Shown here: positions 28,407-63,328 of the stretch, piece after piece
Layout of the letters: every line of letters begins with the position of its first letter
How positions within the stretch are numbered: position 1 is the stretch's first letter
From: Prochlorococcus sp. scB243_495K23
GTDB lineage: Bacteria; Cyanobacteriota; Cyanobacteriia; PCC-6307; Cyanobiaceae
DNA: 64,000 bases
Assembly: GCA_000635495.1 (NCBI GenBank)
Contig: JFLW01000087.1
Coordinates: 62,001-126,000 of the forward strand
Reading direction: 5' to 3'
Made by a program: the position numbers and the translations under genes
Notes under the pieces: generated by a model
The model's input: the letters and a program-made list of their open reading frames with translations, nothing else
What the model was told of the DNA's origin: nothing
Database searches by the model: none

Positions 28407-29195
28407 TTGAAAAATATTGGTTTAATTTTGTTTGACATTGATGGGGTAATCCGCAGCGTAGAAAATAGTTACAGACTTTCATTAAAGAAAACAGTTTACA
28501 AATTTTCCGGATGGGAGCCGGGCTATATAGATATTGATAATGCAAAAAATGAAGGGATCTGGAATAATGACTGGGATTTAAGTTTAGAACTTATAAAAAG
28601 ATATATAAAAAAAGAGAACTTAAACCTTAAAATTCCTCAACGAGAGGAGATAGTAAAGTGTTTTGAAGAGTTTTACTTTGGTGGAGATCCAGACAAAGAT
28701 AGTAAATACTGGTCTGGTTACATTACAAATGAGGAGCTATTAGTTGATAAAAAGTTTTTTGATTTAATTCAAGGTAATGGAATAATCTGGGGTTTTGTTA
28801 GTGGTGCAGAGTCTGCTTCTGCAAAATTTGTTTTAGAAAAAAGACTTGGACTAAAATCACCACCATTAATATCTATGGGAGATGCCCCTGACAAGCCTAA
28901 TCCTAAAGGTTTTATTAACTTATCAAAAAAGCTTATTGGAGATAAACTTGGCGAATCAAATATTCCCATTGCATATGTTGGAGATACTATTGCAGATATA
29001 AATACAGTTATGAACGCTAGAAAGGAAATACCATCTCAGAAATTCATAAGTATCGGAATAGCTCCCCCTCATTTACATTTAAATTCTCGATTAAAAGAAC
29101 GTGATTCTTATGAAACAAATCTTAGAGATGCAGGCGCTGACTTGATTTTAAATTCTATTTATGACCTTAAAGATATTAATCTTGACTTGTTTTAA
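28407..29195 (+). CDS. HAD-superfamily hydrolase, TIGR01548-like
   Basis: A 262-residue phosphatase-like protein of HAD subfamily IA. The nucleophile motif is FDIDGVI (Asp9 and Asp11), motif II is WGFVSGAES, and the acidic motif IV is VGDTIADINT. A cap domain with several Trp residues lies between motifs I and II. The sequence resembles the cyanobacterial/archaeal TIGR01548 group, whose substrate is unknown. It starts at a TTG (28407), with no ATG in a plausible position. It is the last gene before the tRNA-Ser island; 28 bp separate its stop from the distal 16-bp repeat. Confidence 0.8.
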   Translation: MKNIGLILFDIDGVIRSVENSYRLSLKKTVYKFSGWEPGYIDIDNAKNEGIWNNDWDLSLELIKRYIKKENLNLKIPQREEIVKCFEEFYFGGDPDKDSKYWSGYITNEELLVDKKFFDLIQGNGIIWGFVSGAESASAKFVLEKRLGLKSPPLISMGDAPDKPNPKGFINLSKKLIGDKLGESNIPIAYVGDTIADINTVMNARKEIPSQKFISIGIAPPHLHLNSRLKERDSYETNLRDAGADLILNSIYDLKDINLDLF

Positions 29196-29223: not shown

Positions 29224-29239
29224 AATCACGGAGAGGGAG
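29224..29239. repeat. Distal attachment-like repeat, copy of tRNA-Ser 3' end
   Basis: The 16 bp AATCACGGAGAGGGAG is identical to 30631-30646, which spans the last 11 bases of tRNA-Ser(GCT) plus 5 bp downstream. The flanks differ immediately on both sides. This is the layout left when an element integrates into a tRNA 3' end and rebuilds the tRNA, so the copy at 29224 marks the far boundary. Confidence 0.8.
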
Positions 29240-29310
29240 TTACTCGGAGTGAGTCTTGAAGGCACTCTATGACAAGTATAGGGAAGGCAAAAAGATGATG
29301 CTAATGAGAA

Positions 29311-29332
29311 TTATCCCCTAATTTATCCCCTG
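29311..29332. repeat. Two TTATCCCCT motifs, left side of island
   Basis: TTATCCCCTA occurs at 29311-29320 and TTATCCCCTG at 29323-29332, spaced 12 bp start to start, close to one helical turn. The same motif recurs at 30468, 30490 and 30502 on the other side of the lyase gene. A weaker TTATCCCTC is at 29363. Possible recombinase arm-type or regulator binding sites. Confidence 0.5.
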
Positions 29333-29362
29333 AGTTTATTTGTTAATTTGGAGTATTTTATT

Positions 29363-29470
29363 TTATCCCTCGATCTCTACACTCTCATTCGGTAAACCAG
29401 TTTTACCTTTAATTTCATCTCCAAGTGATATCCACCATCTATAGTCTATTTGTTCAAAAGCAAAAAACAC
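29363..29470 (-). CDS. Possible 35-residue ORF or gene remnant in the island
   Basis: From a GTG at 29470 the minus strand encodes VFFAFEQIDYRWWISLGDEI and further to GLPNESVEIEG before a TAA. The composition looks protein-like, with conserved-looking aromatic and acidic positions and no low complexity. It lies just downstream of the lyase gene on the same strand. I know no family for it. It could be a real small protein, the end of a lost gene, or chance. Confidence 0.25.
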   Translation of the reverse strand: MFFAFEQIDYRWWISLGDEIKGKTGLPNESVEIEG

Positions 29471-29483
29471 TTTGTAGTAAATA

Positions 29484-30392
29484 TCATTTTATATAACTAT
29501 CTAAAGTTTTCTCATCTGAAACAACAATGAAATCATCAAAGTGAATCGTTTGGTCGGGGTAACTCACTCCAACTACTCGATCTCGATAGACACCAAGTCT
29601 GATATGACTTCGATAATACTGTCCACGCCAATCATAAGTGACATCATTATAATCAAATATCAATTCCCCATCCTTATAGACTCTGACAAAACCATCGTTA
29701 TCTCTTGTATTATAGATTCCAATCTTATATGTACTCCATTCCCCTAATGGAGTCACTTTTGCTGTACCATCAACATCTCTGTCTTTATATTGACTTCTGA
29801 ACTTTTCCCACTTCTGAATCCAATATTTGTCTGCATAGTTCTTATACTTTGATTCAATACGATACTTGTCTTCTTTCTGCCGACTCATTTTCCTGTCATT
29901 TCCTCCAGTATCTCCTCCTATTTTCAATCTTTGTCCATTTTCATAATAACGTAATCCTATCAAAGGACCATTTGGTCCATCATAATGCATCGTATTCTTG
30001 AATTGAAAGAATAGAACTCTATCGTCGATATGAGTAAAATCCTCTGGAAGTCTCTTTCTGAAACTGATCCATATTTCTTTACCTAATGCCTTTTTAGGAA
30101 ACGGTTGAAATTCTGCTCTTTCAGTGAATTCTTTTGTTCTTCCCTTTCGATCTACATTATATCCATCTTTCACAGTTACAGAGAGATACTGATTGCCATC
30201 AGGATCTACCTTAATTTCAAATGGTTTTCGACCTGTACCTTTATTATTAGTCGTAAATTTATTTGTTCTCAATCTTCCTACCTTTTCATTTTCAAAGTTT
30301 TCAAAGATATTCCAAGGAGAACGACCCTTTGAGTATGAAGTACCAGAGGTAAACACACATAAGATCAAAAAAAGGTATACAAGTTTTTTCAT
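29484..30392 (-). CDS. Secreted polysaccharide lyase-like protein
   Basis: A 302-residue protein with a Sec-type signal peptide (MKKLVYLFLILCVFTSGTSYS), followed by a beta-rich domain resembling heparin-lyase-type (Polysacc_lyase, jelly roll) proteins. Supporting segments are TERAEFQPFPKKALGKEIWISF, FFQFKNTMHYDGPNGPLIGLRY, GEWSTYKIGIYNTRDNDGFVRVYKDGELIFDY and the closing YPDQTIHFDDFIVV. I chose the ATG at 30392 rather than the GTG-type start at 30425 because it puts the signal peptide at the very N-terminus. It would act outside the cytoplasm on a uronic-acid or similar glycan; the substrate is unknown. It is the sole sizeable cargo of the tRNA-Ser island and transcribes away from the tRNA. 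Confidence 0.65.
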   Translation of the reverse strand: MKKLVYLFLILCVFTSGTSYSKGRSPWNIFENFENEKVGRLRTNKFTTNNKGTGRKPFEIKVDPDGNQYLSVTVKDGYNVDRKGRTKEFTERAEFQPFPKKALGKEIWISFRKRLPEDFTHIDDRVLFFQFKNTMHYDGPNGPLIGLRYYENGQRLKIGGDTGGNDRKMSRQKEDKYRIESKYKNYADKYWIQKWEKFRSQYKDRDVDGTAKVTPLGEWSTYKIGIYNTRDNDGFVRVYKDGELIFDYNDVTYDWRGQYYRSHIRLGVYRDRVVGVSYPDQTIHFDDFIVVSDEKTLDSYIK

Positions 30393-30467
30393 GTCCGAAA
30401 AAAATTTTGTGTACTTTAGCACCATCTTTTTTAATTTTTTGTCAACTCATTTTGATAACTTAGAACT

Positions 30468-30511
30468 TTATCCCCTAACAAGTAAAAAAATATCCCCTTC
30501 TTTATCCCCTA
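30468..30511. repeat. Three TTATCCCC motifs, right side of island
   Basis: TTATCCCCTA is at 30468-30477, TATCCCCTT at 30490-30498 and TTATCCCCTA at 30502-30511, in the leader between the lyase start and the tRNA. With the copies at 29311 and 29323 they bracket the gene. All five are in the same orientation. Confidence 0.5.
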
Positions 30512-30534
30512 ACCCTTGAAAACTTTGTGATACG

Positions 30535-30625
30535 ATATGATCCTTCCTGATACTAATTATTTCTCAATCATGCTTCATAGCAAGTCATATGAGCATTTTT
30601 AGAACTATATGAACCTTTCTGAAAC
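30535..30625. repeat. Imperfect 19-bp direct repeat pair next to tRNA-Ser
   Basis: ATATGATCCTTCCTGATAC (30535-30553) and ATATGAACCTTTCTGAAAC (30607-30625) match at 16 of 19 positions in the same orientation, the second ending 6 bp before the att-like repeat. Such repeats near an integration point can be recombinase or excision factor sites, but this is inference. Confidence 0.4.
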
Positions 30626-30635
30626 CAAATAATCA

Positions 30636-30724
30636 CGGAGAGGGAGGGATTCGAACCCTCGACAAAAGTTACCTCCTGTAACTCCTTAGCAGGGAGCCGC
30701 TTTCAACCACTCAGCCACCTCTCC
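30636..30724 (-). tRNA. tRNA-Ser(GCT)
   Basis: On the minus strand the 89-nt sequence starts GGAGAGGTGGCTGAGTGG and ends with the T-arm GTTCGAATC and CCTCTCC plus discriminator G. The 7-bp acceptor stem pairs perfectly. The anticodon loop CTGCTAA gives GCT, and the long variable arm is typical of serine tRNA. CCA is not encoded. Its 3' end carries the 16-bp repeat that marks the island. Confidence 0.97.
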
Positions 30725-30784
30725 AGTTCTTATACATTATCAATTTTTATGCAAACATTCAAAATTTTTTATTTAATCGAAATG

Positions 30785-31984
30785 CTAATCTACATGAACT
30801 TTCGGTAATCTATTTTTAAAAGAACAAAGAATTTCCCAAGGGATAGTATTAGATTTTATTGCCCATTCAAGAGGAGAAATTGTTTTATCTCCATCAGATC
30901 CTAGTAATACCATGGTACTACCAACTTTAATTTCATTAGAATCTGTTATGTCTACCATCATTTGGTCCATAGTTATAGATCCAACTTGAGGATAAAATTT
31001 ATTATTATGGATAACGTCAATCTTGCCTGAAAGATTTCTTGGTACACCATCTGCATAACCAATACTTAATACAGCTAACTTAGTTTTTCTATGACTTACA
31101 AATTTGCCTCCATAACTTACACTTACACCTTTATCAATAGTTCTTATAAAAGCTACTTTGACCTTCAAAGATAAAGCTGGTTTAAGTGATAAATTTTTAT
31201 CTATTTTTTCTAAAGGACTGTATCCATACATAGAAAGCCCAACGCGCACCATGTGAAAATGAAAATCTTTGTTAATAAGCATTCCCGCAGAATTAGCAAA
31301 ATGAATCTTAATTTCATTATTTCGATCAAGATTAATTTGCTTTAATAATTCATTAAACTTCAGTCTTTGTAATTGGGTAATACTTTTAGGATCTAATGCA
31401 TTAGCTTCATCTGCAGAAGCTAAATGACTATATATTCCTTCTATTAAAATGTTCTCAAAAGATTTTATTTTTTCAAATTGCTGAACAAATTTATTAGATT
31501 CAAATCCTAATCTTGACATTCCAGTATCAACTTTAAGGTGTAAAGGAAATTTCAATCCAAAGTGCTTACCAATGTTATTGCAAATTAAACATTCTCTTAT
31601 ACTACTGATAGTTGGCATAAGATCATTTTTAAAACATATATTAAGATCTCTTTTCGTATAAAGATTTCCGAGGATAAGTATTGGTTTTTTAACTCCAGAA
31701 GAACGGAGCTTAATGCCTTCATTTAATGTAGCAACACCTAATTGAGATGCTCCACCTCTAATAGCATACTCTGATACTAATTTCGCATCATGTCCATATC
31801 CATCAGCTTTAACGACTGCCATAAATTGACAATTTTTTCTTAATTTTGATCTTAACTGTCTAACGTTTGTTTCTATTGCTTTACCTTTAACTTCAATCCA
31901 TGCTCTTTGTTTTAGATCTATATATTTTTCAAAATTTGGAGATTTGTCAAAATTAAATACCTGATTTGTTTGACTATTTTTCAT
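30785..31984 (-). CDS. alr: Alanine racemase
   Basis: PLP enzyme making D-alanine for peptidoglycan. The PLP lysine is Lys59 in AVVKADGYGHDA. The GMSRLGF and HFANSAG blocks, the VRVGLSMYGYSPL segment and the second catalytic Tyr in VSYGGKF are present, ending in TIPWEILCSFKNRLPKV. The 399-residue length is normal with a slightly extended N-terminus. It is divergent from the HNH nuclease gene. Confidence 0.96.
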   Translation of the reverse strand: MKNSQTNQVFNFDKSPNFEKYIDLKQRAWIEVKGKAIETNVRQLRSKLRKNCQFMAVVKADGYGHDAKLVSEYAIRGGASQLGVATLNEGIKLRSSGVKKPILILGNLYTKRDLNICFKNDLMPTISSIRECLICNNIGKHFGLKFPLHLKVDTGMSRLGFESNKFVQQFEKIKSFENILIEGIYSHLASADEANALDPKSITQLQRLKFNELLKQINLDRNNEIKIHFANSAGMLINKDFHFHMVRVGLSMYGYSPLEKIDKNLSLKPALSLKVKVAFIRTIDKGVSVSYGGKFVSHRKTKLAVLSIGYADGVPRNLSGKIDVIHNNKFYPQVGSITMDQMMVDITDSNEIKVGSTMVLLGSDGDKTISPLEWAIKSNTIPWEILCSFKNRLPKVHVD

Positions 31985-50557: not shown

Positions 50558-50629
50558 TGGGCCGTCGCCAAGTGGTAAGGCATCGGGTTTTGGTCTCGAC
50601 ATTCCTAGGTTCGAATCCTAGCGGCCCAG
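50558..50629 (+). tRNA. tRNA-Gln(TTG)
   Basis: A 72-nt cloverleaf TGGGCCGTCGCCAAGTGG… with a perfect acceptor stem (TGGGCCG/CGGCCCA) and discriminator G. The anticodon loop TTTTGGT gives TTG, and the T-arm has GGTTCGAATCC. CCA is not encoded. Just 13 bp separate it from the HAD gene start. Confidence 0.96.
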
Positions 50630-63254: not shown

Positions 63255-63328
63255 GGGCATGTAGCTCAGTTGGATAGAGCATCAGATTCCGGTTCTGAGA
63301 GTCGGGGGTTCGAATCCCTCCATGCTCG
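63255..63328 (+). tRNA. tRNA-Arg(CCG)
   Basis: A 74-nt cloverleaf GGGCATGTAGCTCAGTTGG…. The acceptor stem GGGCATG/CATGCTC pairs with one G-U, discriminator G. The anticodon loop TTCCGGT gives CCG, and the T-arm has GGTTCGAATCC. No CCA is encoded. Confidence 0.96.

Follow-up and report, generated by a model that had tools for sequence, protein, structure and literature searches.

A 1.4-kb integrase-less unit at tRNA-Ser(GCT) of Prochlorococcus as a probable non-autonomous, tRNA-borne cassette

How does a 1.4-kb segment that carries one gene and no integrase come to lie between two copies of a tRNA 3' end? This question is raised by a locus in a 64,000-nucleotide stretch of DNA from Prochlorococcus sp. 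scB243_495K23 (contig JFLW01000087.1, positions 62,001 to 126,000), which we call the window and to which all coordinates below refer. An earlier note on this DNA had described the locus as a cargo-only island at tRNA-Ser(GCT), with a perfect 16-bp duplicate of the tRNA 3' end, a single lyase-like gene, no integrase, and repeated motifs, and had proposed that the island was either moved in trans or left behind by deletion. We compared the locus with other genomes of the genus (L-numbers below denote loci or pieces from genomes and G-numbers denote genomes, G000 being the window's own). Our reading, to which we give a probability of roughly three in four, is that the unit is no dead remnant but a non-autonomous cassette, which related tRNA elements move in trans through their integrases. 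Such a cassette would resemble the tycheposons of Prochlorococcus, reportedly described by Hackl et al. in Cell in 2023. Site-specific occupancy, a shared attachment-site (att) design, and recent movement of an integrase-less unit together support this reading; the movement is well supported by the sequence comparisons, and the trans step is what we infer from them.

The 16-mer AATCACGGAGAGGGAG occurs at 29224-29239 and 30631-30646, with no third copy in the window on either strand at up to two mismatches. Shuffled sequence averages 0.05 matches, and two matches were reached in 0 of 100 shuffles. The target gene, tRNA-Ser(GCT), was located by ARAGORN on the minus strand at 30635-30725, so that the duplicate lies past the tRNA 3' end, which remains intact next to the unit. 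What related units conserve of the repeat is an 11-bp core, CGGAGAGGGAG; the outer AATCA is variable. The distal att copy (29224-29239, plus strand) has this core at 29229-29239, and the proximal core (30636-30646, plus strand) lies within the 3' end of the tRNA gene. From core to core, the whole integrated unit spans 29229-30646, or 1407 bp plus one 11-bp core; these limits are given by the cores at both ends and by the empty sites and excision match described below.

The longest open reading frame (ORF) between the repeats, at 29484-30425 on the minus strand, encodes a predicted polysaccharide lyase of 313 aa (Pfam Polysacc_lyase, PF14099, E 2.2e-14), with an N-terminal hydrophobic segment that by eye resembles a signal peptide. 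A search of solved structures returned no relative of the lyase. Overlapping ORFs on the plus strand are shorter, and neither the ORF list nor tblastn revealed an integrase inside the unit. All four window copies of TTATCCCCT lie inside the island, two per end (0.69 expected; four reached in 0 of 100 shuffles). In the left arm (29311-29331, plus strand), two copies stand 12 bp apart as putative integrase arm-type sites; counted from where the left core starts, the first lies at 82 bp. The right arm (30468-30510, plus strand) has TTATCCCCT at 30468, ATATCCCCT at 30490, and TTATCCCCT at 30502, at spacings of 22 and 12 bp. A repeat search listed no terminal inverted repeat at the two ends of the unit. 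The earlier description of the island was therefore borne out in its duplicate, its single gene, and its repeated motifs, the duplicate being refined to an 11-bp conserved core. As a side observation, tRNA-Ser is the sole one of the window's three tRNA genes with a 3'-end duplicate; tRNA-Gln (50558-50629) and tRNA-Arg (63255-63328) have none in the window at a match of at least 14/16.

We used the flanking gene for an HAD-like hydrolase (28407-29195, plus strand), which lies outside the unit, as a handle for locating the locus in relatives. As query, it matched in 214 of the 266 genomes of the genus. From these 214 genomes we examined 122 loci and, with the window, 123; the list was ranked by similarity to the window, and closer relatives are over-represented in it. 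Sites were scored as empty when the HAD gene and the tRNA were 29-63 bp apart. By this measure 73 loci were empty, 46 held inserts of about 0.2-10.7 kb, and 4 had no tRNA on the piece. The earlier note had expected strains without the island to have one copy of the 16-mer and no lyase gene; 73 of 119 classifiable loci (window counted) are of this kind, with a single core copy and no space for the lyase. The inserts resolve into 54 units delimited by the 11-bp core, and tandem stacks of two or three units each are present in 7/46 occupied loci. For 7/46 occupied loci the distal core was unrecognised, and the unit start was fixed at position 38 past the HAD gene.

The closest relative of the window by its two flanking genes, the HAD gene and an alanine racemase gene (ALR; 30785-31984, minus strand, likewise outside the unit), is L040, at 2.9% difference, and its site is empty. 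When the unit is removed from the window in silico, the joined sequence agrees with the empty L040 site throughout the core and the tRNA and first departs from it about 60 bases past the tRNA, by a 1-bp shift. Two candidates were rejected in this part of the analysis. The distal 16-mer is not part of a second, decayed tRNA, because there is no tRNA continuation past the core and the empty sites hold one core; neither outcome that the earlier note had named as refuting its view was observed. A first motif search, for two TTATCCCCT within 30 bp in 60 genomes, matched five: the window's, G018, G030, and the distant G043 and G044, of which the last two were taken as chance matches, as their loci lack the core.

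We next consider whether the units share an att design. Independent of the gene carried, they typically have a 7-9 bp motif repeated 12 bp apart near both ends. Counted from where the left core begins, the left sites lie at about 82 and 94 bp; the right sites precede the right core by about 137 and 125 bp. A third right-hand copy is often present 22 bp further inward; in the window, the distances from the right-hand sites to the core are 168, 146, and 134 bp. The motif itself varies among units (TTATCCCC, TTTCCTACCC, TTTACCCACC, TTTCATCCCC, TCCCAACAACA, TTCGCCACACC, TTCGTCACAAC, ATTGTCCCC, TTTCCGACAAC, and GTAACCC). At lag 12, mean 8-mer identity was 0.66 at about +82 on the left and 0.68 at about -137 on the right, compared to backgrounds of 0.29 (standard deviation [sd] 0.045) and 0.28 (sd 0.049), respectively, in 49 units (those of at least 500 bp plus L169, L175, and L167, minus L037 and L168). 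Left and right motifs also matched within units, at 0.454 compared to 0.359 (sd 0.023) when right ends were re-dealt, a value reached in 0 of 1000 permutations run only at the grid's best position. In a fixed arm test of the 47 units of at least 500 bp, 30 passed on the left, 38 on the right, 26 on both sides, and 25 on both sides with a common 7-mer; the corresponding figures for control segments of the window (n=1880) were 1.9%, 1.6%, 0.05%, and 0%. At least one arm passed in 37 of the 42 integrase-less units of this size.

Arrays of this kind have the layout expected of integrase arm-type sites, and we read them as putative sites of that type; tyrosine integrases bind such sites through their N-terminal domain, according to a general statement in the excerpted text of PMC2951348. 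They could instead be regulatory or structural repeats, such as operators of a cargo promoter. This alternative draws on the arm-site role being read from layout, and on the single left site of L042, L050, and L086. However, the arrays stand at set distances from the att cores whatever the cargo or its strand, are present at both ends, and have counterparts upstream of most integrases of the family and at elements in tRNA-Asn, Ser(CGA), and Ser(TGA), and we regard a purely regulatory role as quite unlikely. We also observed that the L014 unit and L167:6687-11385 each combine left and right arms of different motif classes, as if derived from two recombined units.

Comparison with L187 (Prochlorococcus AG-424-E18) bears on whether the integrase-less unit itself has moved. 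The left arm is 99.2% identical between the two, the lyase 96.2%, the right arm 99.5%, and the whole unit 97.0%; the flanking genes are 87.8% and 87.6% identical. Likewise, L193, L194, and L100 have arms 98.8-99.5% identical to those of the window, with a lyase that is 12-13% different and set apart by an insertion. In L194, the HAD gene lies about 3.5 kb from the unit and has a BLAST identity of 86% over 337 bases. A search with the arms alone found them at 99-100% identity in 7/266 species genomes, one of these by the left arm only (contig end). In a flanking-gene tree of the 118 loci with both flanking genes, the four lyase-unit rows require four changes. An empty site is the nearest row to each of the window, L187, and L193, and L100 has an empty and a differently occupied site at an equal distance of 1.6%. 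Among 50 pairs of units with both arms in common, not counting pairs whose arms aligned over a short stretch only, 12 had arms more alike than flanks, and all six pairs among the window, L100, L187, and L193 fall within these 12. Other pairs without an integrase-bearing member have arms 74-96% identical. Recent spread of the window's integrase-less unit between species is thus well supported, as far as sequence comparison can carry it. Separately, a unit that does bear an integrase was found in L056, L092, and L175, where it is 94-99% identical over 4.0-5.4 kb and the host HAD genes are 76-95% identical. L056 and L175 share 4.0 kb at 94% with HAD genes at 76%, which implies that this integrase-bearing unit recently moved too.

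The same pattern might be sought in homologous recombination of flanking DNA, brought in by transformation, transduction, or vesicle DNA, the att repeats being the relic of one old insertion. Two observations are in favour of this: the flanking genes are mosaic in identity along their length, and lyase alleles recombine within the gene, L193 being 98-100% identical to the window at 29507-29806 and 72-88% at 29807-30406. Against it, the step in identity between the window and L187, from about 88% in the flanks to 97% in the unit, coincides on the left with the att core and lies on the right by the tRNA and the sequence immediately beyond. Moreover, different units share one core and stack in tandem, and the lyase cargo also occurs at another tRNA with unrelated arms. 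This account seems to us the least probable of those considered here, if only slightly less so than regulatory repeats.

Cargo appears to be exchanged between units. A search limited to close relatives found the lyase in ten other named Prochlorococcus loci. In L187, L193, and L194 it lies at tRNA-Ser(GCT) on the window's backbone; L188, L189, L192, and L195 have tRNA-Ser(CGA) on the piece, L191 has equal spacing on a piece that includes no tRNA, and L190 and L196 are either incomplete or coreless. The Ser(CGA)-type units L188, L189, L191, and L192 are 1.73-1.78 kb long, with the lyase as the sole ORF of at least 90 aa. Their likeness to the window is restricted to this gene (95% in L188 and L189; 85% in L191 and L192), and their ends are unrelated to the window's. 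The lyase has thus changed housing between a pair of att backbones that are directed at different tRNAs. The search at other tRNA genes that the earlier note had proposed therefore did find the same cargo in cargo-only units. Conversely, the window's right arm accompanies other cargo in L204 (96.5%) and in L045 and L205 (92%); L045 contains no ORF that reaches 90 aa.

By Pfam and PADLOC, cargo at tRNA-Ser(GCT) includes a carbamoyltransferase with an SxtJ-family partner, sulfotransferases, an acyltransferase-SGNH protein, a polysaccharide export protein, an SRA-HNH protein, and a D12 methylase with a type II restriction enzyme. PADLOC, run on nine proteins, matched three of them: the type II restriction enzyme (L020) and, both in L084, an HNH nuclease and a protein with a weak PDC-S57 match. 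Surface modification and restriction recur as cargo, and the units may therefore serve to vary the cell surface or to resist phages; several cargo proteins could be assigned to no family. Three further observations concern lyase genes and Ser(CGA)-type units. The window's genome has a second lyase gene, 47% identical to the first (L015:6249-7274; G000:C86), on a piece without tRNA or cores. It also has a second unit, at tRNA-Ser(CGA) (L017:1413-5173; G000:C84), of 3760 bp with one 1103-aa ORF that by eye is helicase- or restriction-type-like; its left arm has TACCCACCAACA twice, 12 bp apart, at position 82, and its right arm is unrecognisable. In L191, a neighbouring unit of 3533 bp (L191b) adjoins the lyase unit at the Ser(CGA)-type core and has TTCTCCCAACA arrays and two ORFs (409 and 475 aa).

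Seven units are gene-less and only 177-218 bp long (L023, L039_1, L094_0, L118, L123, L130, and L137). Four of them (L023, L094_0, L118, and L130) align to both ends of a longer unit, with pieces that overlap at the arm repeats; L039_1 aligns to both ends of L020, joined outside the repeats, and L137 and L123 have a partial or no match to the unit tried. The cargo-less units that join both ends of a longer unit resemble solo long terminal repeats. Cargo-less units also bear on the proposal that the window unit is a deletion remnant, the immobile rest of an autonomous tRNA element whose integrase and other genes have gone. That all cargo can be lost, with five of the seven units aligning to both ends of a longer one, is what this proposal would lead one to expect; autonomous elements do decay, as seen from integrase fragments with stops in L161/L185 (G152) and L163 (G278), and L167 pairs an integrase with an export protein like that of integrase-less units of its left-arm motif. 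By contrast, the window unit is found without an integrase, with nearly identical arms, in the seven species genomes noted above (one by the left arm only), the nearest relatives of the carrier hosts are mostly empty, and 49/54 units have no integrase trace. The integrase-less form itself has spread between species, which weakens the deletion alternative raised in the earlier note. We therefore consider an immobile remnant unlikely, although more probable than either alternative weighed above; deletion may be how such units originate, yet it would not account for all that followed.

The alternative we favour, a cassette moved in trans, calls for a source of integrase. Five of the 54 units hold a tyrosine-recombinase gene together with a serine resolvase, and two of these five are 99% identical. 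In the other 49, tblastn gave no trace of integrase, resolvase, or an AlpA-like gene; an AlpA-like protein was recognised by Pfam in L056 and has relatives in L092 and L076. In a Pfam scan of four integrases, L031 and L084 scored above the Phage_integrase cut-off, and L056 and L076 are called integrases because they are similar to the others. A genus-wide search with the L056 integrase as single query (E 1e-20 or better, at which distant integrases may be missed) found relatives at 25 places in 22/266 genomes. Upstream of most family integrases there is a similar array with its own motif, at a spacing of 12 bp, or 11 bp at some other tRNAs.

Three carriers at this tRNA have the same motif as integrase-less units, or one alike: L084 and the integrase-less L020 (TTCGCCACACC / CGCCACACC), L169 and the integrase-less L116_0 (TCACAACA), and L167, in its left arm, and eight integrase-less units (TTTCCTACCC). 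The L167 unit has an export protein beside its integrase, and its start by eye resembles that of integrase-less TTTCCTACCC units. For the window's TTATCCCC class, the nearest carrier is L031_1 (TTTCATCCCC), whose arms share about 80% identity with those of L013, a TTATCCCC unit; in L076 and L167, TTATCCCC-type units directly adjoin integrase units that belong to other classes. Among 18 integrases, likeness of motif correlated with likeness of the N-terminal part at r 0.60 (permutation P 0.0002), in a comparison that used motifs picked by eye and in which integrases related to one another are not independent data points. It left out the ambiguous L174, L170, which shows no clear motif, L175, which hardly differs from L056, and L181, whose motif is that of L180. 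In the window's genome there are two other phage-integrase-family genes, one of 389 aa and one on a phage-like contig. The phage-like contig (L165; G000:C121) encodes a 191-aa tyrosine recombinase, a small-terminase-like ORF (by eye), and an ATPase-like ORF.

A number of observations weigh against our reading. With respect to arm design, 21/42 integrase-less units of at least 500 bp failed the strict two-arm test and 21 passed it. The left array starts at 60 bp in L167, 94 bp in L169, and 73 bp in L116_0 instead of 82 bp, and because these are class-matched units, our confidence is slightly lowered. Moreover, the right arm of the L167 integrase unit differs in class from its left arm. With respect to movement, arms were less alike than flanks in 38/50 pairs sharing both arms, and we therefore claim recent spread only for some units. 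With respect to the helper, the L056 integrase falls just under the Phage_integrase cut-off, as its Arm-DNA-bind_3 match falls under its own, and the L076 integrase has only a SAM-like match under the cut-off. None of the 25 integrase matches found in 266 genomes with this one query, which may miss distant integrases, has the exact TTATCCCCT arms of the window, and the search at E 1e-20 found no relative of the L056 integrase in the window's genome. Among the 41 genomes with solely integrase-less units at the tRNA-Ser(GCT) locus, only one (G168) has a relative of this integrase elsewhere, in a count made by hand comparison across assemblies of which many are incomplete; helper and cassette are thus rarely found together. 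The catalytic part of the 18 integrases also correlates with motif likeness (r 0.47, P 0.0002), and in the seven Ser(GCT) integrases alone the N-terminal correlation is not significant (r 0.35, P 0.08; catalytic r 0.00). Finally, no excised circle was found in viral contigs, the only place searched: IMG/VR viral contigs yielded no match to the lyase, a window-type joined attP, a general attP pattern, or the integrase. Likewise, blastn found no window unit in phage records.

Set against the evidence as a whole, these points leave movement in trans, as the earlier note had suggested, the best-supported reading for the window unit, with the trans action itself deduced from arms and carriers. The unit would consist of one cargo gene between non-coding arms that together would form a complete attP. 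This attP would combine an 11-bp core, the same as the tRNA-Ser(GCT) 3' end, with arrays of a class-specific motif, repeated at 12-bp intervals to either side of the core and at fixed distances from it. The unit would enter the tRNA 3' end by site-specific recombination that leaves the tRNA intact and permits tandem stacking, and the tyrosine recombinase would probably be supplied in trans by related integrase-bearing elements. Cargo could be exchanged between arm backbones, even across tRNA targets. A wider proposal, which we hold to be evenly balanced between true and false, is that Prochlorococcus maintains a distributed, integron-like exchange: kilobase-sized integrase-less units would use distinct arm 'addresses' at tRNA 3' ends, each read by a matching transient integrase, and cargo such as enzymes for surface polysaccharides or for restriction could be re-housed in another address, including that of another tRNA.

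Searches anchored on recombinases would miss such units, as the 49/54 at tRNA-Ser(GCT) without an integrase trace indicate. If they are moved in trans, much of the small-scale turnover of genes in this photosynthetic and very abundant genus would have a definite mechanism, and also a readable code in which the arm motif predicts which helper mobilises which cassette. Our literature search found no description of such units; the founding tycheposon paper was outside its scope, so this is no proof of novelty. The excerpts consulted of PMC2784084 and PMC12416821 contain nothing on such units.

In a comparison of which the original tycheposon paper was not part, we regard the units as a variant on known tRNA-borne elements. 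Like tycheposons, they occur in the same genus, insert at a tRNA 3' end with att duplication, carry cargo genes, and have autonomous relatives with a tyrosine recombinase. Unlike them, the window unit has no recombinase (present in 5/54 units at the same tRNA), and its 1407 bp fall short of the published tycheposon length of 4-200 kb (PMC10872708). Because both recombinase and size range are lacking, we do not file the unit as a tycheposon.

Other systems each share part of the design. Integron cassettes and clusters of attC sites lacking integron-integrases (CALIN) are, in the excerpt of PMC11389934, likewise small, integrase-less, thought to be mobilised in trans, and arrayed; by contrast, the att site here is a tRNA 3' end with long arms. 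Miniature inverted-repeat transposable elements, as presented in the same excerpt, are non-autonomous and keep their ends in the absence of the enzyme, much as the cargo-less units of about 0.2 kb do, whereas the units here carry genes, integrate site-specifically at a tRNA, and have no inverted repeat listed at their ends. The KplE1 integrase IntS, in the portion of PMC2951348 available, binds arm-type sites around a core at a tRNA gene through its N-terminal domain. The window unit has the corresponding attP elements, a core with repeated arm motifs on both sides in a common geometry (binding putative); here, however, arm motif classes vary widely while the geometry is largely kept, and the integrase gene usually lies outside the unit.

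A further parallel is with cis-mobilizable elements (CIMEs), of which the ssrA islands of Dehalococcoides without an integration module, which use a serine recombinase, are given as an example in the available part of PMC3146451. As described there, such islands have att sites at both ends, no integration or transfer genes, and tandem stacks at one RNA gene beside integrase-bearing sisters. The window unit keeps attL and attR sequences (of putative function), carries a lyase-type gene only, and has related integrase-bearing units at the same tRNA. The units described here differ from the Dehalococcoides CIMEs, as far as that excerpt describes them, in their class-specific arm arrays, tyrosine-recombinase relatives, size of about 1-4 kb (0.2 kb when cargo-less), and visible spread between species. 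Thus, on sequence evidence, the window unit appears to work like a cis-mobilizable, integrase-less relative of tycheposon-like, tRNA-borne elements.

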